Shown one piece after another: positions 10,478 through 21,837 of a DNA stretch of 27,079 nucleotides. The stretch comes from a virus. The DNA lies in IMG/VR virus record IMGVR_UViG_3300024346_006356, positions 1 to 27,079 of that record; one strand, written 5' to 3'. Positions within the stretch are counted from its first letter, which is position 1, and each line of letters begins with the position of its first letter. The position numbers and the translations under genes are program-made. Under the pieces are notes generated by a model. That model did no database searches and was not told where the DNA came from. It worked only from the letters and a program-made list of their open reading frames with translations.

Positions 10478-10689
10478 GGCTTGTCTCCTTCGATGAAGTT
10501 AAAGTTAACTACGGTTTGGCCGCAGTTCATGGCAAAGGTCATCATAGCGCGCTTCTGAGCAGAAGGGTTATCCTTCCTGAAGCAGCCTAGGATTTTCTTG
10601 CCATGAATAGGATGTTGGAACTGGTACGAGATGTACCCTTTCTCCATAGGATTCTGTACAGCTTTGAAGTACACGTTGATCTTTTTCAT
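10474..10689 (-). CDS. Small basic hypothetical protein, 71 aa
   Basis: ATG at 10689 with AAAGGAGACC 9 nt upstream, immediately after a type-1 stem-loop. Basic N-terminus (MKKINVYFKAVQNPMEKGY) and a conserved-looking KKILGCFRKDNPSAQKRAM segment, suggesting a nucleic-acid-contacting alpha/beta protein. Translationally coupled to the next gene by ATGA. Confidence 0.8.
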   Translation of the reverse strand: MKKINVYFKAVQNPMEKGYISYQFQHPIHGKKILGCFRKDNPSAQKRAMMTFAMNCGQTVVNFNFIEGDKP

Positions 10690-10697
10690 GTTGGTCT

Positions 10698-10726
10698 CCT
10701 TTAGGCCTTTTATTGTCTTGCCCAGG
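10698..10726 (-). promoter_or_regulatory. Type-1 spacer stem-loop before the 10474 gene
   Basis: - strand CCT.GGGC - loop AAGACAATAAAAG - GCCT.AA.AGG: the stem closes on the AGG of the ribosome binding site. Loop core GACAATAAA is shared with the elements at 14201 and 18087. Confidence 0.6.
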
Positions 10727-10735
10727 ACGCTAGGG

Positions 10736-11407
10736 TTATTCTACTGAGTTGTCCAGCCAGGTCATGATCAAGTTCTGTAACTCTGCGAATTGCCGATGCT
10801 GTTTATTGGTCAGTTCATCAGCACAACTCACACCCCAGATCATTTCCTTAGTGATGTAGAAGGGTTCAGTCTCGAAAGACTCGTTGTCAATACGACAACC
10901 ACTCGGACAGCTAAGGCCACCAGAGTCTAGTGTCCAGTCACCGAAGGATTTGTCCCTCATCATGTCTGCATAGAGCCACTCGTAGACCAGCTCCAGTTCT
11001 TCCAGTTCTTCTGGACCGAAGCAGCCACGTTCCAAGAGCTCTTGGCGACTATTGTCCCAGTCTCCAACTTCAATACACATGTCTGGACCGTAGCCTAGAT
11101 CGAAGTTAGCACAGCAGAAGGTGAAGTCAAAGCGGTATTCACAGTTGCCCGCAATGACTGTAATGCGATCACCGAAGTTCTTCTGGAAGTAGCCTGGAGG
11201 AGATTCCCAGGTCCAACCTTTAGCTTCGATATGTTCCATGGATTTACCTATGCAGCTGTGGCAAATACAATGGGTAGTGTGCTCTGCCAAGACGTTATCG
11301 TGGCAGGTTGTGCACAGAGTGAAGTAATCGCCTGTTGAGTAGTTCGCATCAGGGATCATGGGGAGCATCTTGACGTTTTGCTGGTCATCGACTAGAATGA
11401 GTTTCAT
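10736..11407 (-). CDS. Acidic Cys-rich protein, putative zinc binding, 223 aa
   Basis: ATG at 11407 with AGGAGG 9 nt upstream; ATGA overlap with the upstream gene. An N-terminal Cys/His region CTTCHDN...HCICHSC (about residues 32-52) has the spacing of a zinc ribbon or treble clef. A long acidic central region (ELLERGCFGPEELEELELVY) is helical and more Cys pairs (SCPSGC) follow. No known family. Acidic zinc proteins may mimic nucleic acid or bind host factors, but this is speculation. Confidence 0.82.
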   Translation of the reverse strand: MKLILVDDQQNVKMLPMIPDANYSTGDYFTLCTTCHDNVLAEHTTHCICHSCIGKSMEHIEAKGWTWESPPGYFQKNFGDRITVIAGNCEYRFDFTFCCANFDLGYGPDMCIEVGDWDNSRQELLERGCFGPEELEELELVYEWLYADMMRDKSFGDWTLDSGGLSCPSGCRIDNESFETEPFYITKEMIWGVSCADELTNKQHRQFAELQNLIMTWLDNSVE

Positions 11408-11808
11408 GAGTCTGTACCTCCTAAGTTAATGAGCTGCATCATTGCAGCCGTACGTTCTGACTGTGATTTCCGAGGTTGTACATTCCATCCTTTCTGTTCG
11501 GGATATTTGGATGCGTAACTCGCGATAGACTTGTTAGTAGTCTTAGCGGTTACGATTGCGGCTTTAACCATGTCAGCAATGGTAGTGTAGTCTAACCAAG
11601 CACACTTAGGGTCTTCAAGGATAGGTTTTACTACATCCTCAACCTTGATGCCATCGAATTTCTCTGTAGCCAAGACCATCTTAGCAAGCTCTTCTTTACT
11701 GAGCTTCATCAGATCTTTCATACGGTCTCCTTGTGCATCGGAACCGTTTACGAGGTTATTGATATGAGCTGTGGCTGCCAGTGTTGCTTCTACGAGTACG
11801 TTTTTCAT
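11404..11808 (-). CDS. Four-paralogue family member, 134 aa
   Basis: ATG at 11808 with AAGGAGACC 8 nt upstream, preceded by a type-1 stem-loop. A short helical N-terminus is followed by LMKLSKEELAKMVLATEK, VEDVVKPILEDPKCAWLDYT and the signature TIADMVKAAIVTAKTTNKS-IASYASK, ending GWNVQPRK. It is closest to the proteins at 5330 (TSNKSVASYASKK) and 8432 (DPDCAWLTWDTIA), linking all members. Probably a small winged-helix-like binding protein; function unknown. Confidence 0.85.
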   Translation of the reverse strand: MKNVLVEATLAATAHINNLVNGSDAQGDRMKDLMKLSKEELAKMVLATEKFDGIKVEDVVKPILEDPKCAWLDYTTIADMVKAAIVTAKTTNKSIASYASKYPEQKGWNVQPRKSQSERTAAMMQLINLGGTDS

Positions 11809-11815
11809 TTGGTCT

Positions 11816-11842
11816 CCTTGGGCAGTTCAATGCGTACCCAGG
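11816..11842 (-). promoter_or_regulatory. Type-1 spacer stem-loop before the 11404 gene
   Basis: - strand CCT.GGG - loop TACGCATTGAACTG - CCC.A.AGG, pairing CCT with the AGG of the ribosome binding site AAGGAGACC. Nearly identical to 12424-12451 and 18351-18377. Confidence 0.6.
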
Positions 11843-11851
11843 CTCCTAGAG

Positions 11852-12415
11852 TTAAATAGTTGCGGTTTCGAGCCAATGCTTAAGCTCTTCTTCTGTGTCA
11901 CATTCAAACATTTCGCAGGCATATTCTTGCCAACCATCTTCGTCTACTTCAACGCTGTTAACATAGAACTTCTTAGAGCAGTCTTCCCGATGCTCCTCTA
12001 TGTCAGGGTGTACCCAGACAATCAGTTTGCATGCTGGGTGGAAGTAGCTAGGACATGCATCATTGTGCCAGGATTGATCTACCCAAGGTTCCTCCTTTAA
12101 CCAAGTAGGGATAGTGTTAGGCCATTTTTCTGAGTCAGGAAACTCTACCTTCTGTGGTGTGTAGTTTTCTACCAAGTCACGGTAGTAGTTATCGTATAGC
12201 TTCTCCGCAATAGCCAGTAGTTCATTACCGTACGGAGTAAGCTTTTCCTGTACTTCACCACAGTCACACTGAATGTCTATCATCTTTTCGATGTTAGCAA
12301 CCAGTAGGTGTAGCTTAGCTACATTGAACTCAAGCCAGTTACCATTGACCATGTCGTATACGCCACCAGGATTGAGCTCCAATTTACCATCATGAATACG
12401 GATTTCTTGTGACAT
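11852..12415 (-). CDS. Acidic hypothetical protein, 187 aa
   Basis: The open frame extends upstream, but the start is ATG at 12415 (MSQEIRIHDGKLEL), with AAAGGAGACC 9 nt upstream and a type-1 stem-loop before it. Contains a CDCGE knuckle (about residue 48), later Cys residues (DACPSYFHPAC, EHREDC) and a very acidic C-terminus (CDTEEELKHWLETATI). Possible metal binding; no family recognised. Confidence 0.82.
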   Translation of the reverse strand: MSQEIRIHDGKLELNPGGVYDMVNGNWLEFNVAKLHLLVANIEKMIDIQCDCGEVQEKLTPYGNELLAIAEKLYDNYYRDLVENYTPQKVEFPDSEKWPNTIPTWLKEEPWVDQSWHNDACPSYFHPACKLIVWVHPDIEEHREDCSKKFYVNSVEVDEDGWQEYACEMFECDTEEELKHWLETATI

Positions 12416-12423
12416 TTTGGTCT

Positions 12424-12451
12424 CCTTTGGGCAGTTCAAAGCGTACCCAGG
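12424..12451 (-). promoter_or_regulatory. Type-1 spacer stem-loop before the 11852 gene
   Basis: - strand CCT.GGG - loop TACGCTTTGAACTG - CCC.AA.AGG; the ribosome binding site AAAGGAG forms the 3' side. The loop differs from the 11816 copy at one position. Confidence 0.6.
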
Positions 12452-12461
12452 CTCCAAGAGT

Positions 12462-12971
12462 TTAAATGCGGTTGAGATTGACACCCTCAATTTCTGTGGA
12501 GTCGTTCTCGTCCTTGTCACCCCAAGCGATGACATGGTTCATCTTGAGAGTCAACCACTCCTGAGCAGAGCGTTTCTTAGCCATTGCAATCTGGCTAGCA
12601 GTGCTCATGCCACGAATTTCCATGTCCACATGGTTCATGATAATCAGTAATGCGATTAGATCATCTTTCTCCATGAGTTCATACTGCTTGATGCAGTTGA
12701 CACATTGACCGACAATGCAAGACTGTTCGATATGAGCCTCGTCAGAGTAGGTCTGGATTACCTGCTTGAACGATGTCTCAGTCTTGCAGGTTAAGCAAGT
12801 CTGATTCACCACAACAGGGACGTTGATCTTCTCACGCTTGGTGAAGTTACCATGATACTTCTTCTTGGTTTTCTTCTCCTTAGGCGCAAGGGATTTCAAC
12901 ATCGAGATAGCGACCGTCTCGCTAAGACCAGCTTCCATTAGCACGTTGAGTTGCTTTTCTTGATCTGTCAT
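12462..12971 (-). CDS. Zinc-ribbon protein with Lys-rich linker, 169 aa
   Basis: ATG at 12971 directly follows the stop of the upstream gene; AAGGAG lies 9 nt before. Residues 5-25 (LNVLMEAGLSETVAISMLKS) look like a small UBA-like or helical hairpin. A Lys-rich linker (KEKKTKKKYHG) follows, then a zinc ribbon CLTC...CVNC (about 59-62 and 90-93) and a C-terminal helical domain (ALLIIMNHVDMEIRGMS). The UBA-like reading is only a pattern. Possible nucleic-acid or RNA-polymerase binding; unknown. Confidence 0.82.
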   Translation of the reverse strand: MTDQEKQLNVLMEAGLSETVAISMLKSLAPKEKKTKKKYHGNFTKREKINVPVVVNQTCLTCKTETSFKQVIQTYSDEAHIEQSCIVGQCVNCIKQYELMEKDDLIALLIIMNHVDMEIRGMSTASQIAMAKKRSAQEWLTLKMNHVIAWGDKDENDSTEIEGVNLNRI

Positions 12972-14192
12972 TTACTTAGTCTCCTTCTTGGTTGAGGGCT
13001 TCAGATATTGCTTGAGCTCATCGAATTGATGCCCAAGTCCTTTGATACTGACATGGTATTTACCGTAGCTGTCACCATGATTTCGTACAGATGTAATTTC
13101 CATGCGTCTGAAGTCGTACCATCTTTGGCGCATAGCATAAGTGACATCACGTATGGATCCATCGTCTCGGTAGTGACTAAACCCTAGCATCTCTTCCTCA
13201 GAGAAATGCACACGGACTGTACGATGGAATTCCTTATCCTTGTCTGTGATCTTCTTGTAACACTTCGCATGCATAACCTCGCCATGGTTGTGTACGAATA
13301 CCTCTCGGCGTGGATAGTCGTCTATTGGTTCGGATATCTCTGCGATAACCGTCCTGTCACCAGGTACCAGTCGTTCTTTGCATGCATAACACTTAAGCCG
13401 TCTGTCTACATCCTGCTCCAGAGGATAGTAGTTGATACTAGTGCTGTCCTTCTTTTCGTGTGTCAGTATACCCAGGTTACACTTGACACCGCGACTTTGA
13501 TATTCCTTATACACGGCCTCAGCTGCGAATAGATCGTCAGTGTACAGATTAGGTATATCTGACTTGTAGCCGAATGCTACTTGGTACTTCTTACGATACG
13601 GTTGATCTTTCTTCAGTCGTTGTAAGCCTTTCTGAACCTCATACTTGATGTGGTCCATTTCATCCTGGAACACAAAATACCAGCGACGGAATTCATCATA
13701 GTTTGGATCGTCTTGCCGGATGTCAGGTAGCAGCCGTTTCATATAGGTAGTGGCTAGGCCTATTTGATCACTGAGGAATCTAGAGTATGTCTCTTTAACA
13801 TCCTCGAATGTTACTTTGAAGTCTGACTCAGGTTTCATGTCAGCTAGCAGAGCTTCCTTGTCGTTAAGATTGTAATGTGTACAGCCCAGTTGGCATTTGG
13901 TCTGCTCTGTGGAGTTGAGCACAAAAGTATGGTCACAGATAACTGATGCCAGTCTATCTTTCCATTCAGAGAGAGTTTTGATAGTCTCAAGAACTGGATC
14001 GAGGTTGTCAGTGTTGTTACCCCAGAAAGACAAGTTCAAGAATACCTCTTTGTGGCTTTGACCGACGTCTAGAACATGAGTAGCTAATGCATTCCGCATT
14101 TGCTGATCTTCCATGCTATAGAAGGTGCTCCGTTGGTGAGGACATTTGCTCGAGATAGTAGTTCCACATTTGATACAGATAAAACCTTTCAT
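12972..14192 (-). CDS. Large multi-Cys hypothetical protein, 406 aa
   Basis: ATG at 14192 with AAGGAGACCAAT immediately upstream. N-terminal zinc ribbon FICIKCGTTISSKCPH (Cys/His pairs at residues 6-19), a second site CDHTF...CQLGCTH (about 107-126), a central helical domain (WYFVFQDEMDHIKYEVQKGL) and a third Cys set CYACKERL...H..CYKK (about 277-320). C-terminal ~60 residues are basic. Three metal sites in one protein suggest a nucleic-acid-binding role. I do not recognise the family. Confidence 0.85.
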   Translation of the reverse strand: MKGFICIKCGTTISSKCPHQRSTFYSMEDQQMRNALATHVLDVGQSHKEVFLNLSFWGNNTDNLDPVLETIKTLSEWKDRLASVICDHTFVLNSTEQTKCQLGCTHYNLNDKEALLADMKPESDFKVTFEDVKETYSRFLSDQIGLATTYMKRLLPDIRQDDPNYDEFRRWYFVFQDEMDHIKYEVQKGLQRLKKDQPYRKKYQVAFGYKSDIPNLYTDDLFAAEAVYKEYQSRGVKCNLGILTHEKKDSTSINYYPLEQDVDRRLKCYACKERLVPGDRTVIAEISEPIDDYPRREVFVHNHGEVMHAKCYKKITDKDKEFHRTVRVHFSEEEMLGFSHYRDDGSIRDVTYAMRQRWYDFRRMEITSVRNHGDSYGKYHVSIKGLGHQFDELKQYLKPSTKKETK

Positions 14193-14200
14193 ATTGGTCT

Positions 14201-14228
14201 CCTTAGGCCTTTTATTGTCGTGCCTAGG
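14201..14228 (-). promoter_or_regulatory. Type-1 spacer stem-loop before the 12972 gene
   Basis: - strand CCTAGGC - loop ACGACAATAAAAG - GCCTAAGG: seven pairs with one bulged A. Compared with 10698 the stem changes G to A and gains a matching T, a compensating pair. Confidence 0.62.
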
Positions 14229-14237
14229 ACGTTAGGG

Positions 14238-14729
14238 TTATTTACCTTCTAGAAAGCGCTTAGCTGCAGGAGACCATTTCTCCGGCACACTATCTTCTAA
14301 CATGAACGCGTATGCTGCTGAGAACGGTTTCTCTCTAGTATACTCACAGCATACGGTGTAGCCATCACAACCGCCTTCGAATTTCGCATACAGTCTGGCA
14401 CCATCAGGCTCTTTGCCGTGAGTGTTACGAAACTGTATCATGAGGGCCTCACAGATTTTGCGAGACGGGTAGGTGCCGAATGGATCTTCTTCATGAGGAC
14501 AGTCAGCTATGTAGATGAAGTCCTTTCCTGGAGTTATGACGTCTTCCTCAAGTTCGTCACAGCCTTGGCAATGCCGTACAATGATACAGTTTTCACCGTC
14601 CATACGGTAGGTTACGAAGTCAGCGATTGGCAGTGGTGGATCGCCAGGTAGCGGACGTTCATCTTGTATGTCTGCGAAGTGAGTGCAGACACTGCGAAGG
14701 TACTGGCCGAGCTCTTTCATTTTACTCAT
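14238..14729 (-). CDS. Hypothetical protein with CxxC pairs, 163 aa
   Basis: ATG at 14729 (MSKMKELGQYLRSVC), with GGAGG 8 nt upstream; an earlier ATG lies within that binding site. Cys pairs HCQGC (about 69), ADCPHE and GGCDGYTVCCEY may bind a metal. The region DGARLYAKFEGGC looks beta-stranded. It overlaps a 52-aa gene upstream by ATGA. Unknown function. Confidence 0.8.
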   Translation of the reverse strand: MSKMKELGQYLRSVCTHFADIQDERPLPGDPPLPIADFVTYRMDGENCIIVRHCQGCDELEEDVITPGKDFIYIADCPHEEDPFGTYPSRKICEALMIQFRNTHGKEPDGARLYAKFEGGCDGYTVCCEYTREKPFSAAYAFMLEDSVPEKWSPAAKRFLEGK

Positions 14730-14884
14730 AGTGGTTTCCTCCATAGTTGTTTTCTGTTGTCGAAAAAACATGCAGTCTTACCTATACGGAATGGCACATA
14801 GGGTTCGAACATGTCTACCAATAGCCAATTTTTCTTGTCTGGGTCAAGTGTATGACCGTAGTTTACCACCAGCTTCAAGCTCAT
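14726..14884 (-). CDS. Small hypothetical protein, 52 aa
   Basis: Short frame supported by AAAGGAG 5 nt before the ATG at 14884 and by ATGA overlaps at both ends (with the 14881 gene upstream and the 14729 start downstream), so it closes an otherwise unexplained 150-nt gap in the operon. The product starts MSLKLVVNYGHTLDPDKKN and ends FFDNRKQLWRKPL; soluble, beta-rich, basic tail. No family. Confidence 0.75.
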   Translation of the reverse strand: MSLKLVVNYGHTLDPDKKNWLLVDMFEPYVPFRIGKTACFFDNRKQLWRKPL

Positions 14885-15105
14885 GACTGCTCCTTTGGGC
14901 ACTTGTAACCGTTAAAGATAATCTCAGGTACTGTCTCACCACAGTTGATGAGGAATTTACGACGACCGATTACATCGCCGGCATGTGTTAAGCCTTCTTG
15001 GTACATCTCAAGACGCTCATTGTACTCAGTCCATAAGTCTTTAATAGACTGACGACGTTCCATGATGATGCGATGTTCTTCTTCTGTCAATTCTAGCGTT
15101 TTCAT
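14881..15105 (-). CDS. Small helical hypothetical protein, 74 aa
   Basis: ATG at 15105 (MKTLELTEEEHRIIMER) with AAAGGAGACC 8 nt upstream, after the type-3 stem-loop. A long charged helix (EEHRIIMERRQSIKDLW, then YNERLEMYQEGLTHA) is followed by a short basic stretch (GRRKFLINCGE). A coiled coil or dimerising helix is likely. Coupled to the 52-aa gene by ATGA. Confidence 0.8.
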   Translation of the reverse strand: MKTLELTEEEHRIIMERRQSIKDLWTEYNERLEMYQEGLTHAGDVIGRRKFLINCGETVPEIIFNGYKCPKEQS

Positions 15106-15117
15106 TTGGTCTCCTTT

Positions 15118-15138
15118 ATGCGTGATTGGTATGCGCAT
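15118..15138 (-). promoter_or_regulatory. Type-3 spacer stem-loop before the 14881 gene
   Basis: ATGCG/CGCAT stem (15118-15122 with 15134-15138), loop CATACCAATCA on the - strand. Same element as at 6773-6792, 8.3 kb away. Confidence 0.52.
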
Positions 15139-15153
15139 CCCACCTTAAGAGGT

Positions 15154-15756
15154 TTACTCGTCCAGCAACATTTGTTCTACTATGTAGCGCGAATTTTCCT
15201 CAGGCTCAGTGAACACCCGGGATTCTGGGTATGTGGCTTCTACGCCAGCTAGCACGTACTGTAGTGTGTTGTCATCAGACACGGTTACCACACAGCTTTC
15301 GTGACCGCATTCATCTATCCTCATGATGCGGATTTTCCCTGTGTACTTTACAGCCTCGATTTCCTTGTCAATCTCGGCCAGCCATTCGACACGCTTTTCC
15401 TCAGTCTCTGGCAAGGACACAGTCATGTCACAGCGAGGACAGTCAATTTCATCCTCATAACCCATGACGAATTCCAGTCGAGCGCCGCAGTGACACTTGT
15501 ACTCAGATGGGGCGGGCTCACCATTTTCACAAGCAGCACAGCAGCAGTCGTGACTAGGATTGAGGTATGTACCATGCTTACAGGTATCCCCAGGATGATG
15601 CCGCCAGCCTTGAGGATAACGCTTGTTCAGGGTGTCTGTGCATGTATCACACAGTTCGACTGTACCATGAGGACCAGTCATACCGCAAGGAAATTCAATC
15701 GTCTTACCGTGATAGCCGGATTCTACCCATACATCTACCTTGTTTTCACATTTCAT
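15154..15756 (-). CDS. Multi-zinc-site hypothetical protein, 200 aa
   Basis: The start is ATG at 15756 (MKCENKVDVWVESG) with GAGGAGG 9-10 nt upstream; the longer frame overlaps the previous gene. It has many paired Cys/His: LCDTCTDT (about 39-44), CKH...HDCCCAACE (58-74), KCHCGARLE (about 83-87) and IDCPRCDMT (about 100-104), i.e. two to three zinc sites of the ribbon type in the first 110 residues, then an alpha/beta C-terminus with another CGHESC. A nucleic-acid-binding or chaperone-like zinc protein is possible. Family unknown. Confidence 0.82.
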   Translation of the reverse strand: MKCENKVDVWVESGYHGKTIEFPCGMTGPHGTVELCDTCTDTLNKRYPQGWRHHPGDTCKHGTYLNPSHDCCCAACENGEPAPSEYKCHCGARLEFVMGYEDEIDCPRCDMTVSLPETEEKRVEWLAEIDKEIEAVKYTGKIRIMRIDECGHESCVVTVSDDNTLQYVLAGVEATYPESRVFTEPEENSRYIVEQMLLDE

Positions 15757-16003
15757 TGTCTTGTTCCTCCTCGTTAAGTATGGCATCAATTGCCCGATCG
15801 TAGGACTCCAAGTCCCAAGTGTGCAGCCAAGCAAAGAAAGCACGACGCTGATTTCTTGGTTGCACTAACATCATACCAGCCTGGAGCTCTGTAACTGCGC
15901 AGCCCAGGGTTGCTAGGAACACTACCGCATCTACTACCTGTGCTAGCATATGCCAGAACAGGTCACGACGTCTAAGGTTGCGTGAAACTAGTCCGAATGT
16001 CAC
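15746..16003 (-). CDS. Small membrane protein, 85 aa, GTG start
   Basis: GGAGG lies 7 nt before the GTG at 16003, and the GTG overlaps the upstream stop as GTGA. The N-terminus is basic (TFGLVSRNLRRRD) and is followed by a hydrophobic span (LAQVVDAVVFLATLGCAV, about residues 19-37); the rest is amphipathic and acidic at the end (NEEEQDNEM). One transmembrane helix is likely. It follows a 40-aa protein that also has a membrane helix, so the two could form a complex. Confidence 0.72.
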   Translation of the reverse strand: MTFGLVSRNLRRRDLFWHMLAQVVDAVVFLATLGCAVTELQAGMMLVQPRNQRRAFFAWLHTWDLESYDRAIDAILNEEEQDNEM

Positions 16004-16122
16004 TGTGTCACCTCCGTATGCAGTTGTACACACGCATCACACGTGTGGGGTTCTTTAGTCATGCTCTGATACATGCCGTTGATCAGAACTAATACGATAG
16101 CCGCGATAATGATCTTATCCAT
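16000..16122 (-). CDS. Membrane microprotein with CDAC motif, 40 aa
   Basis: AGGAGG lies 9 nt before the ATG at 16122. The product begins MDKIIIAAIVLVLINGM, an N-terminal membrane helix, and the soluble part carries CDAC. Its TGA overlaps the GTG of the next gene. The layout, a membrane helix and a Cys pair only 15 residues later, suits a tiny inner-membrane protein with metal or disulfide chemistry in the adjoining compartment. No homologue recognised. Confidence 0.72.
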   Translation of the reverse strand: MDKIIIAAIVLVLINGMYQSMTKEPHTCDACVQLHTEVTQ

Positions 16123-16252
16123 GGTACGGTACCTCCTCTTTCTTTGGTGGACAACATTTGATACAGAGGTAACCTTTTGTCAGGCTACCCCGGCCGATTT
16201 TGTCTACGGACCAGATTCTCTTTTCACAGATCAAGCAGTAGATTCCTTCCAT
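16115..16252 (-). CDS. Zinc-ribbon microprotein, 45 aa
   Basis: AGGGAGGA lies 5 nt before the ATG at 16252. The sequence holds CLIC near residue 6 and CIKC near residue 30, a complete two-knuckle zinc ribbon with a 20-residue spacer (MEGIYCLICEKRIWS...). It ends by overlapping the next gene by 8 nt. Minimal zinc ribbons of this size are common in phages; role unknown. Confidence 0.75.
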   Translation of the reverse strand: MEGIYCLICEKRIWSVDKIGRGSLTKGYLCIKCCPPKKEEVPYHG

Positions 16253-16262
16253 TGTATCCTCC

Positions 16263-16625
16263 CTAGTTGTTTACGTAGCCCTCAGCTACTAGTAATGGAC
16301 CATAGCCCTCGGATTCTAGCGCAGCTAGTACGTCTAGATGTGTGAGGCTCATGACCTCGATATCAGACACGTTGTAGTGTCCTTTCTTGCTCAAGATTTG
16401 GTTAACCGTACCGACGTTAAAGCCATTGGATTCGGCCCAATTTTTAATGGTACCGTTAACACTACGAATTATGAACTGTAGGTTGCTGTACTCGCGTTCT
16501 TTGTGCACAGGTTTAGTGTTCTCTAGCTTAACCCATGCATCACTACAGTAGTCACACAGGTCTTGACCATTAGGCATTTTATACAGTGTAGGTGCCTGGC
16601 ATTTACAGCCTTCGCATTCTCTCAT
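16263..16625 (-). CDS. Zinc-ribbon plus helix-turn-helix protein, 120 aa
   Basis: ATG at 16625 with AGGAGG 6 nt upstream; ATGA overlap with the upstream gene. Residues 4-27 (CEGCKC...CDYC) form a zinc ribbon. Residues ~57-85 (TIKNWAESNGFNVGTVNQIL) read as a helix-turn-helix of the XRE-like/phage-repressor type: an A-x-x-x-G turn followed by a T-V-N-Q-I-L recognition helix. A DNA-binding regulator is likely; its target might be the promoters in this window. Confidence 0.78.
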   Translation of the reverse strand: MRECEGCKCQAPTLYKMPNGQDLCDYCSDAWVKLENTKPVHKEREYSNLQFIIRSVNGTIKNWAESNGFNVGTVNQILSKKGHYNVSDIEVMSLTHLDVLAALESEGYGPLLVAEGYVNN

Positions 16626-16786
16626 TTGTTCCTCCTGGCGTGGTGTTGACGAAGTAGGGCTTCTTTCTTCGTGTATAGATCAAGCATGAAGGCCGGAGCC
16701 ACGAGATATCCAGTTGAAATGAAGTGAGGAATCATTGATTCCTTTACATAGTCAAAGGTACCGTTACTAGTTAAGATTCTTATCAT
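16622..16786 (-). CDS. Small hypothetical protein, 54 aa, paralogue of the 21863 gene
   Basis: GGAGGAGAC lies 5-8 nt before the ATG at 16786; ATGA overlap with the next gene. Its first 33 residues (MIRILTSNGTFDYVKESM and so on to GYLVAP) match the 32-aa protein at 21863 (MVKVLTKHNTVDYVKKDM ... GYIIAV), sharing the L-T-x-x-x-T-x-D-Y-V-K frame. The conserved repeat in two distant loci supports both genes. It has a C-terminal basic extension (LLRQHHARRNK) that the other lacks. Function unknown. Confidence 0.78.
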   Translation of the reverse strand: MIRILTSNGTFDYVKESMIPHFISTGYLVAPAFMLDLYTKKEALLRQHHARRNK

Positions 16787-16793
16787 AATAGTC

Positions 16794-16815
16794 TCCTCCC
16801 CGTATAGCCGATAGG
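16794..16815 (-). promoter_or_regulatory. Type-2 spacer stem-loop before the 16622 gene
   Basis: - strand TCCTATCGGCTATACGGGG then AGGAG: TCCT pairs with AGGA of the ribosome binding site. The loop resembles that at 9948-9973 (TCGGCATGACGGG). Confidence 0.45.
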
Positions 16816-16827
16816 ACAGCTGTTAGA

Positions 16828-17130
16828 TTATGCTACGTAGTAAGAATGACCACTGAACTGGTCAGTGTGAATTTTGATGTTAGCATACACGACGTGCTCA
16901 ACACCACGTGAGGTAACAATGATACCATCGTTATTGTTATTGATGGAGTCAGCAAGGATAGTCTTGTGCGATGTACGCACACGTTTGTCCTGCTTGTAAG
17001 TACGGCCACGGTAGTAGTTGTTACGTGTATAAGTGCGGCATGCATCGCAACGGCACTCACCTGTGGTAATAACAACATGCTTACGTGAACCAATCTGTGT
17101 GGGATAATCATCCCATTCCTTGATCTTCAT
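16828..17130 (-). CDS. Basic hypothetical protein with Cys pair, 100 aa
   Basis: ATG at 17130 with AAGGAG 8 nt upstream. It carries ECRCDAC (about residues 25-31) followed by a very basic, Tyr-rich stretch (RTYTRNNYYRGRTYKQDKR) and a beta-like C-terminus (GIIVTSRGVEHVVYANI). The basic aromatic region suggests RNA or DNA binding. It stands alone downstream of a large hairpin at 17203-17263. Confidence 0.78.
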   Translation of the reverse strand: MKIKEWDDYPTQIGSRKHVVITTGECRCDACRTYTRNNYYRGRTYKQDKRVRTSHKTILADSINNNNDGIIVTSRGVEHVVYANIKIHTDQFSGHSYYVA

Positions 17131-17202
17131 AATAATCTCCTTGATCAGTTAGGGTTAAAGATTCTGTTCGTACACGAGTTATGGTTTTTCCTTTCGGTTA
17201 GC

Positions 17203-17263
17203 TCGAATCGAAACCACTGTGAACATAGACGTAGTATCCATGTCGACAGTAGTTTCGGTTCGA
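17203..17263 (-). ncRNA. Long hairpin in the leader of the 16828 gene
   Basis: TCGAATCGAAAC (17203-17214) pairs with GTTTCGGTTCGA (17252-17263) over twelve positions with one G-U, then ACTGT/ACAGT (17216-17220 with 17246-17250) and further partial pairing continue toward the loop. It is far larger than a spacer stem-loop and has no T-tract, so it is not an ordinary terminator. The GGTTCGAATTC resembles a tRNA T-arm, but the other tRNA arms are missing. Leader regulation or a structured small RNA is possible. Confidence 0.5.
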
Positions 17264-17359
17264 ATTCTGAGCGGACCAACCCCTACCTTGCACCCCAGGC
17301 AAAATCTCTTTTTGGGTTAACTGTACTACTGGGGTATGGGTTAGATACACATAGCCACC

Positions 17360-17911
17360 TTAGACCTTAGTGAATGTAAACAAACCAGTCTGCTTACGAT
17401 GAGTCACCCGAAGGTAACCATGGTAAGTGAAGACTAGGGATTGGATGGTTAATCCAATGAGCCCATTGCTTAAGCCAACATGCACAAAAGCAAGGTCTGC
17501 TACGATCCACATCCATCCCATCAGGTCCAATCTCATTTTTGACATAGCCCATGCGCCAATTACGGCGAATGGAGTAGCCAGCATTGAGACCGGATCCATA
17601 TGGAAATAGAATCCGCTGCTGATGCCAATGGACACGAATAGTACTGTGGCCATCGACACGAGAAGACCGCTAAACGCACGGCTCTTGTACATAGGTAACG
17701 TGTACCAAGCAAGTGTCGCTTGGCATAGCCCGAAAGCTAAGTCACCAATGCTCAAGGCTACCATGATGTTTATGGTATTCCCTAGCAGGAATGCTTTAGC
17801 CCCATCTTCGTACTTCTGATGCACCATATAGGCTGAACCAGACATAGCAAAGACAGATGCTAATACACTCAGGATTTGGACTGTGGTCATGCTTTCGATG
17901 ATTCCGTTCAT
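17360..17911 (-). CDS. Multi-pass membrane protein, PnuC-like, 183 aa
   Basis: ATG at 17911 (MNGIIESMTTVQILS) with GGAGG 7 nt upstream. About six or seven hydrophobic spans cover most of the sequence (for example ILSVLASVFAMSGSAYMV, LLVSMATVLFVSIGISSGF, IWIVADLAF-like segment near 150). The late segment MGWMWIVADLAFVHVGLSNG and the final GYLRV resemble the C-terminal helices of PnuC nicotinamide riboside transporters, a family seen in some phages that salvage NAD precursors. The match is by pattern only; another small transporter family is possible. Confidence 0.72.
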   Translation of the reverse strand: MNGIIESMTTVQILSVLASVFAMSGSAYMVHQKYEDGAKAFLLGNTINIMVALSIGDLAFGLCQATLAWYTLPMYKSRAFSGLLVSMATVLFVSIGISSGFYFHMDPVSMLATPFAVIGAWAMSKMRLDLMGWMWIVADLAFVHVGLSNGLIGLTIQSLVFTYHGYLRVTHRKQTGLFTFTKV

Positions 17912-17928
17912 AATTACCTCCAGGTTAA

Positions 17929-17981
17929 GGTGAGTACTCCGAGAGAACACGACTAATTTCGTGTGCTCTCCCGTACTCACC
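17929..17981 (-). promoter_or_regulatory. Long leader hairpin before the PnuC-like gene
   Basis: GGTGAGTAC/GTACTCACC (17929-17937 with 17973-17981), a small internal loop, then GAGAGAACACGA pairing with TCGTGTGCTCTC (one mismatch), loop of 6 nt. The 3' arm stops a few nucleotides before the ribosome binding site of the 17360 gene. A similar hairpin (18932-18983) precedes the deaminase gene; both follow an ATGCCTATAAGAAA motif. Confidence 0.6.
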
Positions 17982-18013
17982 TCCCACTCACCACTCCGTG
18001 TAGTCAGGAGCGA

Positions 18014-18058
18014 CTAAGCAGCGACTGAAGATCTATGACTCGGTTTTCTTATAGGCAT
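18014..18058 (-). other. Leader element with 14-codon frame MPIRKPSHRSSVAA
   Basis: The sequence ATGCCTATAAGAAA occurs here and at 19058 in equivalent positions, before a large hairpin and then a gene. Here it opens a 14-codon frame. AAGGAGG lies only 1 nt before the ATG, too close for efficient initiation, so a translated leader peptide is uncertain. TATAAG could instead be a -10 box preceded by TTAACC-like sequence. Confidence 0.4.
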
Positions 18059-18086
18059 ACCTCCTTGTTAAGGGTTAAGTTCACAC

Positions 18087-18110
18087 GGCAGTTTATTGTC
18101 ATGCCCAGGA
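18087..18110 (-). promoter_or_regulatory. Type-1 stem-loop upstream of the 18014 leader
   Basis: - strand GGCA - loop TGACAATAAAC - TGCC, with GTCCTGGG upstream as in the other copies. Unlike the operon copies, no ribosome binding site follows directly; the leader element lies ~30 nt further on. Confidence 0.5.
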
Positions 18111-18118
18111 CAGTCATG

Positions 18119-18343
18119 CTACTCATTGTTTTGGACTTTAATGTTTAATGGTGCCAATTCTAGTCTAGCTGGATCATAAGTATAGCAGGTAATTCCCCAA
18201 GTCCGCTCATACGAAGCCCATCTAAGCTTAGCACCACTCGGTAGTACAAATCCATCAGGATGATGAGACTTATTAGGCATTTCACCGTTGAAGTATTTCT
18301 TTGCGATTGCTGTGGCTTTCTGGTGCGATATAGATACAAACAT
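18119..18343 (-). CDS. Small hypothetical protein, 74 aa
   Basis: ATG at 18343 with AAGGAG 5 nt upstream, after a type-1 stem-loop. Contains a helical N-terminus (SHQKATAIAKKYFNG), a His-rich turn (KSHHPDGFVLPSG) and a beta-like section (LRWASYERTWGITCY). Soluble; no recognised family. It stands as a single gene between two structured non-coding regions. Confidence 0.78.
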   Translation of the reverse strand: MFVSISHQKATAIAKKYFNGEMPNKSHHPDGFVLPSGAKLRWASYERTWGITCYTYDPARLELAPLNIKVQNNE

Positions 18344-18350
18344 TTTAACT

Positions 18351-18377
18351 CCTTGGGCAGTTCAAGGCGTACCCAGG
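18351..18377 (-). promoter_or_regulatory. Type-1 spacer stem-loop before the 18119 gene
   Basis: - strand CCT.GGG - loop TACGCCTTGAACTG - CCC.A.AGG, closing on the AGG of AAGGAG. Confidence 0.6.
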
Positions 18378-18414
18378 CTCTTAAAGGTTACATACAATAG
18401 ATAAGTATTAAGAT

Positions 18415-18490
18415 TGTGTCCCTCCCAGGATATGTGGGGAGGGACACATTCTGTTGCCAAGCTGTCTATACAGCTCCGAGTCTTAACTCG
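18415..18490 (-). ncRNA. Three consecutive hairpins after the 18505 gene
   Basis: In - strand order: CGAGT-ttaag-ACTCG type hairpin (18477-18490), GCTGT-atag-ACAGC (18461-18474) and a strong 12-bp hairpin TGTGTCCCTCCC/GGGAGGGACACA (18415-18448). All three are perfect stems with short loops. They follow the deaminase stop codon by a few bases and no T-tract follows. This could be a structured 3' end or RNA-stabilising element, a small RNA, or a factor-binding region. Confidence 0.5.
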
Positions 18491-18504
18491 ACACCGCTTA
18501 CAGT

Positions 18505-18909
18505 CTAAAAGTTGTAAGTCTTACCACTGTCAATTACGATCGCAGCAGCAACACCGTTAAGTGTCATTGTTTCGATGCAATTGTCACAGCAGTAAGTATG
18601 ACCTACCACATAGACTGTAGACTCTGCAGGAGAAACACCAGCATTGATGCAAGCATCAATAGCGGCGACTTCTGCGTGGAAGTCCTGGTTGCAAACGTCA
18701 GAGCACAGTTCATAACCAGTACCTGAGGCACAATTTAATGTGACTCTCGGGCACACGGTTACTTCACCGTTGCTCATCCAGTTAGCACCAAAGAACTCAC
18801 GACCGTCGACTGTAAGAAGCATAGCGTAAACACTCTGCTTAATACAAGGTTTCAGGTCAGGGCCTGCGGTTTCATCGCACCTGGCGATGATGTAGTCTTG
18901 CTTCTTCAT
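18505..18909 (-). CDS. Cytidine/dCMP deaminase-like protein, 134 aa
   Basis: ATG at 18909 with AAGGAGACC upstream. Zinc-dependent deaminase fold: FHAEVAAIDACINAG gives the HAE motif (His78, Glu80), and STVYVVGHTYCCDNC gives the second half of the site (Cys108 and Cys111, where PCxxC is usual). Further conserved Cys (PCIKQ, VCPR, LCSDVC) may bind a structural zinc as in some dCMP deaminases. The likely reaction is hydrolytic deamination of a cytosine nucleotide or nucleoside, but substrate cannot be read. A close paralogue is at 21349. Proline before the first catalytic Cys is replaced by Cys. Confidence 0.8.
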   Translation of the reverse strand: MKKQDYIIARCDETAGPDLKPCIKQSVYAMLLTVDGREFFGANWMSNGEVTVCPRVTLNCASGTGYELCSDVCNQDFHAEVAAIDACINAGVSPAESTVYVVGHTYCCDNCIETMTLNGVAAAIVIDSGKTYNF

Positions 18910-18931
18910 ACTTGGTCTCCTTCTGGGTTAA

Positions 18932-18983
18932 GATTAGCATCTAGGAACATACGGCTTATTCCGTATACTCCCTGATACTAATC
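18932..18983 (-). promoter_or_regulatory. Leader hairpin before the deaminase gene
   Basis: GATTAG/CTAATC (18932-18937 with 18978-18983), ATC/GAT inside, and an inner ATACGG/CCGTAT stem (18949-18954 with 18961-18966) with loop CTTATT. It lies just before the AAGGAGACC of the deaminase gene. A weak promoter-like TCCTA with AATCTT is embedded in it. Confidence 0.55.
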
Positions 18984-19028
18984 TCCACATAAGGTACATA
19001 TACCCTATGAGCGACCAGTTGGATTCAA

Positions 19029-19058
19029 CTATGCGAGCAAGCTATTTCTTATAGGCAT
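19029..19058 (-). other. Leader element with 9-codon frame MPIRNSLLA
   Basis: Second copy of ATGCCTATAAGAAA, opening a 9-codon frame. AGGAG abuts the ATG with no spacing, so translation is doubtful; a TATAAG -10 reading is possible. It is followed by an AGTTG/CAACT small hairpin and then the large hairpin at 18932-18983, in the same order as at 18014. Confidence 0.4.
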
Positions 19059-19080
19059 CTCCTGTTTGGGTTAGTATTCG

Positions 19081-19260
19081 TTAAGCTACGAGTTTCGCTG
19101 CTATTGCTGCACAGCGAGCTCGCATATCCAGCTCTTGCTTAACACACTGAGAAGACCAGCATAGCGCACGATAAGAAGCATCGGTTGCTAGTACGGTTAT
19201 CTCACAGCCACATGGAAGGTCTATAGTAAGCACCTCCTGTGGGGCATATGCCTTAGACAT
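19081..19260 (-). CDS. Small Cys-containing hypothetical protein, 59 aa
   Basis: ATG at 19260 (MSKAYAPQEVLTIDLPCG) with AGGAGG 7 nt upstream. It holds LPCGCEITV and LCWSSQCV (two Cys pairs that could bind a metal) and ends in an Ala-rich helix (RARCAAIAAKLVA). The same AGGAGGTGCTTA string occurs once more inside the gene without an ATG. Function unknown. Confidence 0.72.
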   Translation of the reverse strand: MSKAYAPQEVLTIDLPCGCEITVLATDASYRALCWSSQCVKQELDMRARCAAIAAKLVA

Positions 19261-19288
19261 AAGCACCTCCTGTTTGAGTTAAATGCAC

Positions 19289-19310
19289 AGGCAGTTTAAT
19301 GTCCATACCC
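19289..19310 (-). promoter_or_regulatory. Type-1 stem-loop upstream of the 19081 gene
   Basis: - strand GGGTA - loop TGGACATTAAAC - TGCCT (two G-U pairs). It begins shortly after the stop of the 19324 gene, and its sequence (GTCCTGGG...) matches the copy at 18087. Confidence 0.5.
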
Positions 19311-19323
19311 AGGACAGTGGAAC

Positions 19324-20808
19324 TTAGCGGATGTATTCGCCTTCAATTTTGTCGTTATCCTGTAGCCACTGCTCTACAGCCACCTCGTTAGGATAAGGAC
19401 ATGGATCGTTCTGCTTCCCGTAATGCTGTACAACTTTAAAACCTACAGCCGTCTTTTTAAGCTGTACGGTAGTTTCGTTACCGTCTACAGTTACGTGATA
19501 CATAAACGCTTCACCTCTATGACAGTCTTTATGATAACCGCCAACACAGTGATGCATTCTATCGCCTTCAGTTTGTAATTCACCGGCAGTAGTAATGTAC
19601 TTAATCTGGTCTGTATCAGGCAATTCACTCTCTGGGAATTTAGCATCCGGGTCAAAGCCGTTTTCCAGAGCTATACGACGACGTGAATTCTCAAATGCTA
19701 ACGTTACCGAAGTTCTAACGCCGTTAACCAGGTCTATAGGAAGAATCTCGTCTATGCGGTCGAAGAGCACGTCTTCATAACCATCATAGTCGTTTTCCTC
19801 ACCAACTTCCAACTGATCAAGCTTTTTACCAGCCCATTCGAAGAGCATACGATCATGTACACGAATGATACCAAAGTTAGTGCCGGTTAAGCCGTAGTTA
19901 GCGGCCCATACCCTACGAAGAGCCCCGTATATCATTTCGTCCAATTGTGCCCAGCCCACTTTCTTTAAGCTAGTACGCTGACCTTTTTCGCTGATACTCA
20001 CTAGGACCTGATGAGCTTCTTTCTTTCGCATGTCTATATCGCCAATGCGGTTATCTACCCACTCACGAAAAGACATACCGTTGTATAGGTCAACTGCTAG
20101 TATAGCAGGTAGCGTATTGAAGAGTGGATTATCTGTGAGCACATAAGGGTCCATTTTGTCGAGATGATCCTCAAAGTGGTTAATGAACTGAGCGCTAAAT
20201 CCACAAGTGTACCAGGCTATGGTCTTAGTGTGAGTATTGCACATATCGTACAGTACCTCCTTAGGAGTAAGGGTTACACAGCATTTGCACGGCAATACCA
20301 TGAGCGCCGATTCCAGGTCAGCACGGATATAGACCTTGAGAGATATAGGCTTAACAGAGGTGTATGCATAGCGTGCTGTAGCATTGGTAGATACATGAGA
20401 CACTATCTCAAAGCGACTTTCTTGCAGTACCTTAAGCAGCTTAGTGTACTCAGTAGAGAGAGCGGATGTATCTTTAATCATACGTGCTGTCTCACGGTGA
20501 CGTGTAAACACACTCTTAAGCATACGACCAGTAGACGTATCAGTACTAGAAGTAGTGTTAGACTTGAACATGTTACTAAGCCTACCACTCTGTGCTTCAG
20601 AGAGATCAACACTAATAACATCACCACCATACAAGTAAGCAGTTATCTCTGCTGTAGTCATATCTTCCTCCATCAAGGTATGTTGTTCTATACATACCTT
20701 GTTCTGATTATAAGTCCAAGCGTTAGCCTTACGTTGGTTATAAGAGCTCTCCATAGAAGCCTCCTCTTTAGTTAAGTTAGTAGTTAAGTTAGTAGTTAAG
20801 TTAGCCAT
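19324..20808 (-). CDS. PcfJ-like protein, 494 aa, nested start sites
   Basis: Three in-frame ATGs have good binding sites: 20808 (AGGAGG, 6 nt), 20754 (AGGAGG, 5 nt) and 20661 (GGAGG, 5 nt). Codons 1-18 encode an LTTN repeat (MANLTTNLTTNLTKEEAS). The C-terminal ~75 residues have the PcfJ-type signature MHHCVGGYHKDCHRGEAFMY (CVGG at about 421-424), then TTVQLKK, FKVVQHYGKQND and a final VEQWL helix. The central part includes basic helices. It is related to the 8831 protein at the C-terminus only, as far as I can see. Biochemical function of the family is not established. Confidence 0.78.
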   Translation of the reverse strand: MANLTTNLTTNLTKEEASMESSYNQRKANAWTYNQNKVCIEQHTLMEEDMTTAEITAYLYGGDVISVDLSEAQSGRLSNMFKSNTTSSTDTSTGRMLKSVFTRHRETARMIKDTSALSTEYTKLLKVLQESRFEIVSHVSTNATARYAYTSVKPISLKVYIRADLESALMVLPCKCCVTLTPKEVLYDMCNTHTKTIAWYTCGFSAQFINHFEDHLDKMDPYVLTDNPLFNTLPAILAVDLYNGMSFREWVDNRIGDIDMRKKEAHQVLVSISEKGQRTSLKKVGWAQLDEMIYGALRRVWAANYGLTGTNFGIIRVHDRMLFEWAGKKLDQLEVGEENDYDGYEDVLFDRIDEILPIDLVNGVRTSVTLAFENSRRRIALENGFDPDAKFPESELPDTDQIKYITTAGELQTEGDRMHHCVGGYHKDCHRGEAFMYHVTVDGNETTVQLKKTAVGFKVVQHYGKQNDPCPYPNEVAVEQWLQDNDKIEGEYIR

Positions 20809-20830
20809 GCTGCACCTCCTAGTTAGTGTT

Positions 20831-20859
20831 TATATAAGTAACTCTATGATGTAAGTAAC
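20831..20859 (-). promoter_or_regulatory. Promoter candidate inside the 17-bp repeat
   Basis: - strand GTTACT, exactly 17 nt, then TATATA. GTTACT is also the -35 of P3. The tandem repeat supplies GTTACT three times at a 17-bp pitch, so one repeat unit equals one promoter spacer. It would start transcription of the 19324 gene near 20824. Confidence 0.5.
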
Positions 20860-20886
20860 TCTATGATGTAAGTAACTCTATAAGTA
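20836..20886. repeat. 17-bp tandem repeat, about three copies
   Basis: The unit AAGTAACTCTATGATGT is repeated nearly perfectly (units begin at about 20836, 20853, 20870; the last copy ends AAGTAACTCTATAAG). It lies just upstream of the 19324 gene and ends beside a hairpin at 20884-20910. Confidence 0.75.
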
Positions 20887-20910
20887 CCTCACACTCGGGA
20901 CATGAGGTAC
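20884..20910 (-). terminator. Hairpin downstream of the 20918 gene
   Basis: GTACCTCA/TGAGGTAC (20884-20891 with 20903-20910), loop of 11 nt, followed in the - direction by TTATAG. The same stem sequence occurs at 8395-8420. Probably a terminator for the 20918 gene. Confidence 0.5.
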
Positions 20911-20917
20911 CTAACAA

Positions 20918-21244
20918 CTACTTAGACCTTGTTCTATAAGTATGATCATTGAACTCATACATCTCATCTAGTTGTACATATATCCATATAACCTCTTCTA
21001 GCACACAACCTAGTACCTCTGCAGCAAACCGAGGTGTCCAGTTGCGTCTGTAGCAATCTAAGACTAATCTTGTTCTGTTAAGTCTTGCCTCAAAAGACTC
21101 GTCTCTGTCAGTAAGCAGCACTGGTATAGGCTGCTCTGTAGGTCTAGTGATGTATCTACCCAGTAGAAAGAAGCTAACTACTAGAAGTAAAGCAACAACA
21201 CACTCAAGACCGGTGATAGGACCTGTAAAGATAAGTGACCACAT
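20918..21244 (-). CDS. N-terminally anchored membrane protein, 108 aa
   Basis: ATG at 21244 with AAAGGAG 6 nt upstream. Residues ~8-30 (TGPITGLECVVALLLVVSFF) form one transmembrane helix, followed by Arg and a polar segment. The C-terminal ~60 residues (RLNRTRLVLDCYRRNWTPRF, AEVLGCVLEEVIWIYVQLDE) look like a helical domain with a possible HTH-like turn (WTPRFAAEVLG). It could be a membrane-tethered regulator; no family recognised. Confidence 0.78.
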   Translation of the reverse strand: MWSLIFTGPITGLECVVALLLVVSFFLLGRYITRPTEQPIPVLLTDRDESFEARLNRTRLVLDCYRRNWTPRFAAEVLGCVLEEVIWIYVQLDEMYEFNDHTYRTRSK

Positions 21245-21311
21245 AGTACTCTCCTTTGTTAGGGAGAGGCTACCCGAGTAGTTACCTCTGTTACAGTTAG
21301 TGTATCTATAC

Positions 21312-21333
21312 AGTCAGTTTAACGTCTATGACT
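21312..21333 (-). promoter_or_regulatory. Type-1 stem-loop upstream of the 20918 gene
   Basis: - strand AGTCA - loop TAGACGTTAAAC - TGACT. Compared with GGGCA/TGCC at 18087 both arms change together, keeping five pairs. It is ~70 nt before the start codon; a separate GAGG/CCTC hairpin (about 21266-21288) lies between. Confidence 0.58.
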
Positions 21334-21348
21334 AGGACGGTAATGAAC

Positions 21349-21837
21349 TTAGAAGATGTATTCTTTACCATTGTCAATGCAGATAGCCTTCTTAACACCA
21401 GCAGCCTTCATTGTATCTTGACATGGCTGACAGCAGACAGTGTGACCAGTAAGGTATACAATTGAACCTTGTGGGTCAGCACCAGCGTTGATACAAGCAT
21501 CGATCGCAGCAGGCTCAGCATGAAACTCTTGGTTACATACATCTGAACACAACTCATAACCAGTGAGTGATGGGCAGCCAGCTGTAACACGTGGACACAC
21601 AGAGACATCATAGTTAGACATCCAGTTGGCACCAAAGTGTTTAGTACCATCCACAGTGATCAAGACAGCATTGACAGGCTGCTTGATACAAGGGAACATA
21701 AACCCTGCAGCCTGAGCACAGCCCTCTGTAATGTACTCGTTGAAAGGCTTCAAAGTAACCTCCTCCTTAATAGGACTAGAATTGATCTTTACAGCAACAG
21801 CACCAATGAATCCAACCAGCATGATAAGTTCAAACAT
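21349..21837 (-). CDS. Deaminase-like protein, long form with membrane anchor, 162 aa
   Basis: ATG at 21837 with AAGGAG 8 nt upstream yields an N-terminal hydrophobic segment (MFELIMLVGFIGAVAV) before the deaminase domain. The domain is a close paralogue of the 18505 protein: FHAEPAAIDACINAG supplies HAE, and HTVCCQPC the Cys pair. A TTG at 21753 (codon 29) has AAGGAGGAGG 5-8 nt upstream and would give a 134-aa protein, exactly the length of the paralogue, aligning from its first residue. So this gene may yield a soluble form and a membrane-anchored form. Substrate unknown. Confidence 0.8.
   Translation of the reverse strand: MFELIMLVGFIGAVAVKINSSPIKEEVTLKPFNEYITEGCAQAAGFMFPCIKQPVNAVLITVDGTKHFGANWMSNYDVSVCPRVTAGCPSLTGYELCSDVCNQEFHAEPAAIDACINAGADPQGSIVYLTGHTVCCQPCQDTMKAAGVKKAICIDNGKEYIF

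Follow-up and report, generated by a model that had tools for sequence, protein, structure and literature searches.

The minus-strand genes of IMG/VR record IMGVR_UViG_3300024346_006356, a virus record of 27 kb (27,079 nucleotides, positions 1 to 27,079, hereafter the window), are carriers of a small repeated RNA element located in their intergenic spacers. This element is, with near certainty, a compact H-type pseudoknot, and it is tied to the ends of cistrons, with a modal distance of 6 nucleotides (nt) from the preceding stop codon. The same fold recurs in unrelated phages and, sparsely, in bacterial genomes.

The element spans about 25–29 nt and has the architecture 5'-S1-C-S2-(1–2 nt)-S1'-(6–7 nt)-S2'-3', in which S1 is NNC/GNN, followed by a single C; S2 contains 4–6 base pairs (URRRYA/UGYYYA); and an A-rich loop mostly ends in UAAAC. 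Since S1 (GTC/GAC, AGC/GCT) crosses S2, the fold is a pseudoknot. The original prediction had placed related stem-loops in at least eight minus-strand spacers of the window, and a related element indeed lies at all eight places that it listed (Table 1). Its shape differs from the one envisaged: the stem described there is S2 alone, and the proposed loop consensus, CA(T/A)T(A/G)AA, is really the 3' arm of S1 together with the third loop. The arms seen to change together (e.g., GGGC/GCCT, AGTCA/TGACT) are those of S2, which also covaries in unrelated contigs. A gap-tolerant pseudoknot descriptor found seven of the eight copies as its sole matches on both strands of the window, while 200 dinucleotide-shuffled windows gave a mean of 0.01 matches and a maximum of one. 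The eighth copy (18085-18111) keeps S1 and the loop, forms only four of six S2 pairs, and is listed by a stricter, ungapped descriptor with three of its four counted S2 pairs. One mismatch each reduces S1 to two pairs in two of the eight copies (those ending at 18379 and 11844).

An exact scan with 19 fixed bases matched nine other viral contigs, and the degenerate pattern CCTRRRCANGNNNNTAAACTGYYYA matched at least 120 stretches in viral contigs, against two for the reversed pattern. With a looser pattern, 38 of 39 records searched whole held 70 matches in all, and the reversed pattern had none; these records (36 viral contigs and three named phages) were chosen since most held a match, and the scan therefore informs on copy number and strandedness, not on frequency. 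Within each of the 38 matching records, all copies, up to eight, lie on one strand. Some candidates were set aside. Blast matches in a Fusobacterium phage (H27, inside an opposite-strand coding sequence and covering part of the query) and in Klebsiella (H25 and H26, inside a tail gene) are probably not copies, and locus L008 shares a 20-mer with the element while its S2 is unpaired.

Both helices were assessed by leaving one of them free in the search. The totals from the viral scans (S1 free; S2 free) and from the bacterial-genome scan are lower bounds, and the sets of 329 copies (224 viral, 105 from genomes) and 309 nonredundant copies used below are those among the matches listed. At the positions that the search patterns fix (loop UAAAC and C9 among them), conservation was imposed by the search itself. 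When S1 was left unconstrained, 122 of the 126 viral matches listed form both outer pairs, in 16 combinations, as do 111 of the 122 bacterial-genome matches listed. With S2 free and S1 fixed, 132 distinct matches were listed: position 8-24 is GC in 98, AT in 18, TA in 6, GT in 6, and CG in one, with three mismatches; pair 7-25 forms in 128, pair 6-26 in 114, and the outermost pair 5-27 is optional. After removal of near-duplicates, all tested S1 pairs form in 97.4% of 115 viral copies, against 22.1% with shuffled partners, and in 90.2% of 102 genome copies, against 35.0%; for S2, the values are 83.5% and 40.0% (115 copies). In one Polynucleobacter copy, even the otherwise fixed Y9-G23 pair is replaced by U-A. 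Two crossing helices, both covarying, are thus present, and the very strong covariation across unrelated phages and bacteria upholds the claim of a selected RNA structure. Recent duplication of whole spacers followed by drift, the outcome that would have undone that claim, is ruled out by the concerted changes in S1 and S2 across unrelated contigs.

Among named phages, 11 of the 14 records tested hold a copy that fits the descriptor: Synechococcus phage S-H35, Moorella phage MTATph1, Cellulosimicrobium phage DS1, Staphylococcus phages SA13 and StB12, Roseobacter phage SIO1, Lactobacillus prophage Lj771, crAss-like phage cr7_1, Mycobacterium phage Labelle, Lentibacter phage ICBM2, and Cylindrospermopsis phage CrV-01T, the last with three copies within 6 kb. 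Deviating forms occur in Arthrobacter phage Amigo (a 9-nt third loop), Bacillus phage Page (an altered 3' arm), and Escherichia phage flopper (an S1 mismatch). The ICBM2 copy lies inside an annotated glutaredoxin coding sequence, whose start is found between the ribonucleotide reductase stop and the copy. Bacterial genomes are sparse in the element: 20 genomes chosen for holding a match contain 39 (the richest eight), against eight for the reversed pattern, and some of the 39 look like chance. The hosts of the carrier phages span many phyla, which makes a single cognate phage protein unlikely.

The position of the element relative to coding regions was examined using gene ends and starts obtained from open reading frame (ORF) heuristics. 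An ORF of at least 100 codons ends within 100 nt upstream in 157 of the 309 nonredundant copies. Among these, the stop-to-element distance is 5 nt or less in only four, exactly 6 nt in 30, and 6–12 nt in 81. In 102 spacers with both ends found, 22 copies lie at 6 nt, where uniform placement predicts 1.9 and never gave more than eight in 20,000 simulations. The stop codon preceding the element is TAA in 86 cases, TAG in 24, and TGA in 11, compared with 641, 287, and 422 elsewhere in the loci, and the spacing is not confined to one frame. The downstream start is less fixed relative to the element than the upstream stop: the next start codon lies a median of 28 nt away, with a spread of 5–336 nt (114 copies), so that a fixed relation to the downstream Shine-Dalgarno (SD) sequence or start was found for five window copies and not across the family. 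In the window, seven of the eight copies lie 7–10 nt 3' of the TAA or TAG of an ORF, and five abut or nearly abut the SD of the next gene.

Genes on either side of the element are varied. Among 93 upstream proteins scanned, of 120 selected, the commonest include DUF932 (12), Hsp20 (7), ribonucleotide reductase (5), and minor head protein (5), a diversity that makes the role look generic. On the 3' side, the 329 copies are followed by a same-strand gene in 188 cases, by nothing within 150 nt in 98, by an opposite-strand ORF in 29, and by a transfer RNA (tRNA) in 14. All 14 tRNA-adjacent copies are among the 224 viral ones, with the tRNA 1–30 nt away. At the tRNA loci, 9 of 11 copies with an ORF end found lie 5–8 nt past the stop (this count covers 14 copies, one not itself tRNA-adjacent, with L283 removed as redundant). 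Six or more T residues directly follow the element in 16 of 309 copies, compared with 0.07% for control positions; in half of the 16, the 60 nt upstream contain no ORF end. The linker 3' of the element is G-poor. A strong hairpin is not regularly found there, as the z score falls below -2 in 12.6% of downstream 50-nt stretches and 17.2% of upstream ones.

At some loci, the element is followed by a known RNA. In L146, two copies precede hammerhead ribozymes, one of them a match to Rfam Hammerhead_3, and, by the rules of hammerhead cleavage, these would cut about 5 nt past the knot. Loci L146 and L161 belong to one contig (SSFP01000090.1) of a Polynucleobacter metagenome-assembled genome, which carries several copies, two followed by hammerheads and two by AT-rich inverted repeats. 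A search aimed at the same arrangement yielded L350 and L351/L352, the latter with a predicted cut 3' of the ribozyme. The hammerhead core CUGANGA...GAAA is absent from the element and follows it in L146 (two places), L350, L351, and L352. Two hammerhead-like cores (L031:5339 and L031:9978, plus strand) also occur in one viral contig, not adjoining a pseudoknot copy. In two loci, the pseudoknot is followed without a gap by the DUF2800 RNA (RF02960; L142:1-101 and L210:1691-1849, both minus strand).

We propose, tentatively and with a little less than even confidence, that the element is a putative cistron-end roadblock keeping exonucleases off the upstream coding region. The knot would form a mechanical obstacle just past the stop codon. 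By ribosome geometry, a helix that starts 6 nt beyond a stop codon occupying the A site lies just outside the unwinding site, so that the 6-nt minimum would keep the knot just clear of a terminating ribosome, and upstream translation would not melt it. A 3' end would then be made downstream by RNase P at a tRNA, a ribozyme, a terminator, or an endonuclease acting in the G-poor linker, and the folded knot would stop 3'-to-5' exonucleases short of the coding region, stabilizing the upstream message. Enrichment of TAA and depletion of TGA are expected if leaky stops let ribosomes melt the knot. This proposal would account for the spacing minimum, the TAA preference, the indifference to the 3' neighbour, the G-poor linker, and the wide range of hosts, and the tRNAs, U-runs, hammerheads, and DUF2800 RNA directly downstream at some loci count in its favour as 3'-end makers.

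Several observations weigh against the roadblock. For nearly half of the nonredundant copies (152 of 309), the 100 nt upstream hold no end of an ORF of at least 100 codons; among the other 157, 72 lie 13–100 nt from the stop (25 at 13–30 nt, 47 at 31–100 nt). Most copies have the next gene or nothing recognised downstream, i.e., no known 3'-end maker, and no tRNA follows any of the 105 copies from genomes. The reverse tests are weak: the element was found at none of five type II hammerhead loci and at two of three Hammerhead_3 matches, all three in one genome. Similarly, none of three further DUF2800 loci (one over the cut-off, two under) carries it; of four DUF2800 matches, only the L142 locus itself has the pseudoknot, and the independent locus L353 is without it. 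An obligate pairing with either RNA was rejected on these grounds. Finally, one bacterial subfamily, from Omnitrophota, Desulfobacterota, and other groups, has a conserved peptide (AHCxEGC...SW) of some 20–29 residues that ends inside the knot. The peptide has a consensus near RYMLRPVAHCKEGCxxxSWA and an SD-like site, and it accounts for 16 of 21 small ORFs overlapping the element (Table 1). Of ten proteins scanned from the genes that follow, four are Rrf2 regulators; the genes also include ones for a ribonucleotide reductase, an ArsP permease, RseC, and PTPS/QueD-like and GrdB-like proteins. Four of the peptides, compared with NCBIfam, gave no match. With its stop inside the knot, translation of the peptide would open the knot in that subfamily, which the roadblock leaves unexplained, and such opening may have a regulatory use.

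Among the other explanations, we consider it unlikely, if worth retaining, that the element influences ribosomes at the stop codon, by stalling or timing termination, keeping post-termination ribosomes from drifting onward to the following gene, or promoting read-through or frameshifting. The 6-nt mode is the spacing of frameshift and read-through pseudoknots, and very few copies lie closer; however, the leaky TGA is depleted and TAA enriched, which runs counter to read-through and makes it improbable as the main role, the spacing keeps to no single frame, and the element also lies between stops and tRNA genes, without a following start. A processing site, a role also raised in the original prediction, or a 5'-end cap stabilizing the downstream message, e.g., that of scaffold and capsid over portal and protease, seems to us quite unlikely. 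This idea draws on four Gram-positive phages in which a copy separates portal, minor-head, or protease genes from the gene preceding the major capsid gene (scaffold in two, a minor structural protein in one, unnamed in one), and on the hammerheads and tRNAs that show processing nearby. Yet the element is tied more tightly to the upstream stop than to the downstream start, and a tRNA downstream has no need of such a cap.

Placement in the translation-free gaps of long phage operons, with G-poor flanks, could also suit a device that counters transcription termination, such as a put-like antiterminator or a Rho roadblock in the untranslated gap past the stop; we regard this as improbable, given that the U-runs directly after some copies look like terminators rather than anti-terminators. 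Very improbable, in our judgement, is that the element serves the downstream gene as a translational operator, whether recognised by a phage protein, as the original prediction suggested, or closing on the SD. In the window, the five SD-abutting copies can pair three or four bases with the SD, and the predicted outer closure of CCT on AGG is present in three of them; the other two have CTC instead, and no outer helix exists across the family, where the flanks of 309 nonredundant relatives are no more complementary than mismatched ones (4.12 versus 4.07, standard deviation 0.06). An SD-pairing helix was therefore rejected as a family trait. Starts after the element have an SD in 44 of 81 cases and other intergenic starts in 113 of 239, i.e., with no difference, which also disposes of the element as a replacement for the SD in ribosome recruitment. 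This unchanged SD rate, the copies between stops and tRNA genes, and the many host phyla led us to reject a general operator of downstream genes; within the window, an influence on the gene directly downstream is still conceivable. A very small self-cleaving ribozyme would surprise us greatly. The phage setting is common to the element and hammerheads, but the element has few conserved unpaired bases, much of that conservation stems from the search patterns, and self-cleavage would be redundant where a hammerhead directly follows.

The H-type shape itself is well known, and we know of no counterpart to the position rule of this element. Viral frameshift and read-through pseudoknots are small H-type knots located 5–9 nt past the A-site codon; the spacing is alike, whereas the element follows ordinary stops, favours TAA, and has no fixed frame. 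The autoregulatory pseudoknot of T4 gene 32 is a knot in a phage message that serves as the operator of one gene, unlike the present element, which follows many unrelated genes in unrelated phages. The preQ1-I and SAM/SAH riboswitches are likewise H-type knots near ribosome-binding sites, from which the element differs in having no Rfam match and no shared metabolic gene context. Rfam gave no match in the whole window at gathering thresholds, three in window positions 10400-21700 up to an E-value of 5, none at a copy, and nine in L213 (four copies) up to an E-value of 10, again none at a copy; at gathering thresholds, no match in 30 loci covers a copy, and one hammerhead match overlaps the last three bases of one. 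In these searches, no covariance model of any Rfam 15 family (preQ1-I, STAXI, SAM/SAH, and others) matched across a copy. Eukaryotic RNA viruses carry exonuclease-resistant RNAs (xrRNAs), which stop 5'-to-3' enzymes. Like the element, xrRNAs are compact folds in viral RNA (PMC6299227, PMC7527734), and an exonuclease stop is proposed here too. The present element, by contrast, lies in messages of double-stranded DNA phages, is far smaller, and would face 3'-to-5' enzymes. The STAXI motif (RF01728) is a pseudoknot near mobile-element genes with two or three repeats and UUCG tetraloops (PMC2864571); the likeness lies in a pseudoknot near such genes, whereas the window copies are single, one per spacer, and the Rfam searches made gave no match to RF01728. 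Two 2010 candidates, GUCCY-hairpin (Bacteroidetes, Proteobacteria) and Lacto-int (Lactobacillales phages), which have no Rfam accession in the table that lists them (PMC2864571), could be partial sightings, judging by name and groups alone. Literature searches, mostly outside subscription journals, found no description of the element. It appears to be an undescribed RNA family with a stop-distance rule, unless the two 2010 candidates are partial sightings of it.

Other features of the window and of related loci are noted here. Terminase and portal genes lie at 23025-26188 on the plus strand, and the twenty best-ranked terminase matches are Vibrio phages (28–30% identity). On the minus strand, a PcfJ-like C-terminal domain (PF14284) occurs in two proteins (8831-9940 and 19324-20808). 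ORFs 18505-18909 and 21349-21837 resemble paralogues with a deaminase-like Cys/His pattern, judged by eye; a pseudoknot copy follows one of the two and not the other. A strong inverted repeat without a T-run (GTGTCCCTCCC...GGGAGGGACAC, 18418-18449, minus strand) lies a short way upstream of the copy at 18354-18379. In four Lactobacillales prophage loci (L101, L188, L201, L220), about 100 conserved bases (tagcgtgaagtgatagacgtgtg...) separate the pseudoknot from the next SD; this stretch has no Rfam match at gathering thresholds.

Table 1. Pseudoknot copies in the window (segments in the order S1, C, S2, linker, S1', third loop, S2') and loci of the bacterial peptide.
Feature	Location	Strand	Segments	Pairing	Setting
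Pseudoknot copy	21311..21338	-	GTC C TAGTCA TA GAC GTTAAAC TGACTG	S1 3 pairs, S2 6/6	10 nt past TAA of ORF 21349-21837
Pseudoknot copy	19288..19315	-	GTC C TGGGTA TG GAC ATTAAAC TGCCTG	S1 3 pairs, S2 6/6 including wobbles	8 nt past TAA of ORF 19324-20808
Pseudoknot copy	18354..18379	-	AGC C TGGGTA C GCC TTGAAC TGCCCA	S1 2/3, S2 6/6	abuts SD of ORF 18119-18343; no clear gene directly upstream
Pseudoknot copy	18085..18111	-	GTC C TGGGCA T GAC AATAAAC TGCCGT	S1 3 pairs, S2 4/6	7 nt past TAG of ORF 18119-18343
Pseudoknot copy	14204..14230	-	GTC C TAGGCA C GAC AATAAAA GGCCTA	S1 3 pairs, S2 5/6	7 nt past TAA of ORF 14238-14771; abuts SD of ORF 12972-14192
Pseudoknot copy	12428..12453	-	AGC C TGGGTA C GCT TTGAAC TGCCCA	S1 3 pairs, S2 6/6	8 nt past TAA of ORF 12462-12971; adjoins SD of ORF ending at 11852
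Pseudoknot copy	11819..11844	-	AGC C TGGGTA C GCA TTGAAC TGCCCA	S1 2/3, S2 6/6	7 nt past TAA of ORF ending at 11852; abuts SD of ORF 11404-11808
Pseudoknot copy	10702..10728	-	GTC C TGGGCA A GAC AATAAAA GGCCTA	S1 3 pairs, S2 5/6	7 nt past TAA of ORF 10736-11407; adjoins SD of ORF 10474-10689
Peptide loci	L138, L139, L140, L149, L150, L153, L156, L162, L165, L166, L186, L190, L200, L204, L221, L234				

A conserved, covarying fold in such varied named phages opens a testable way into phage control of message ends, and the constancy of its spacing from the stop codon allows a link to the terminating ribosome to be tested directly. In its broadest form, which we hold a shade more tentatively than the roadblock itself, one tiny device across many host phyla would mark and protect the end of a cistron, at the smallest ribosome-safe distance and with interchangeable makers of the 3' end. 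If true, the element would provide a 27-nt part to stabilize or insulate cistrons in engineered operons, and it would be the bacterial-virus counterpart of the exonuclease-resistant RNAs.

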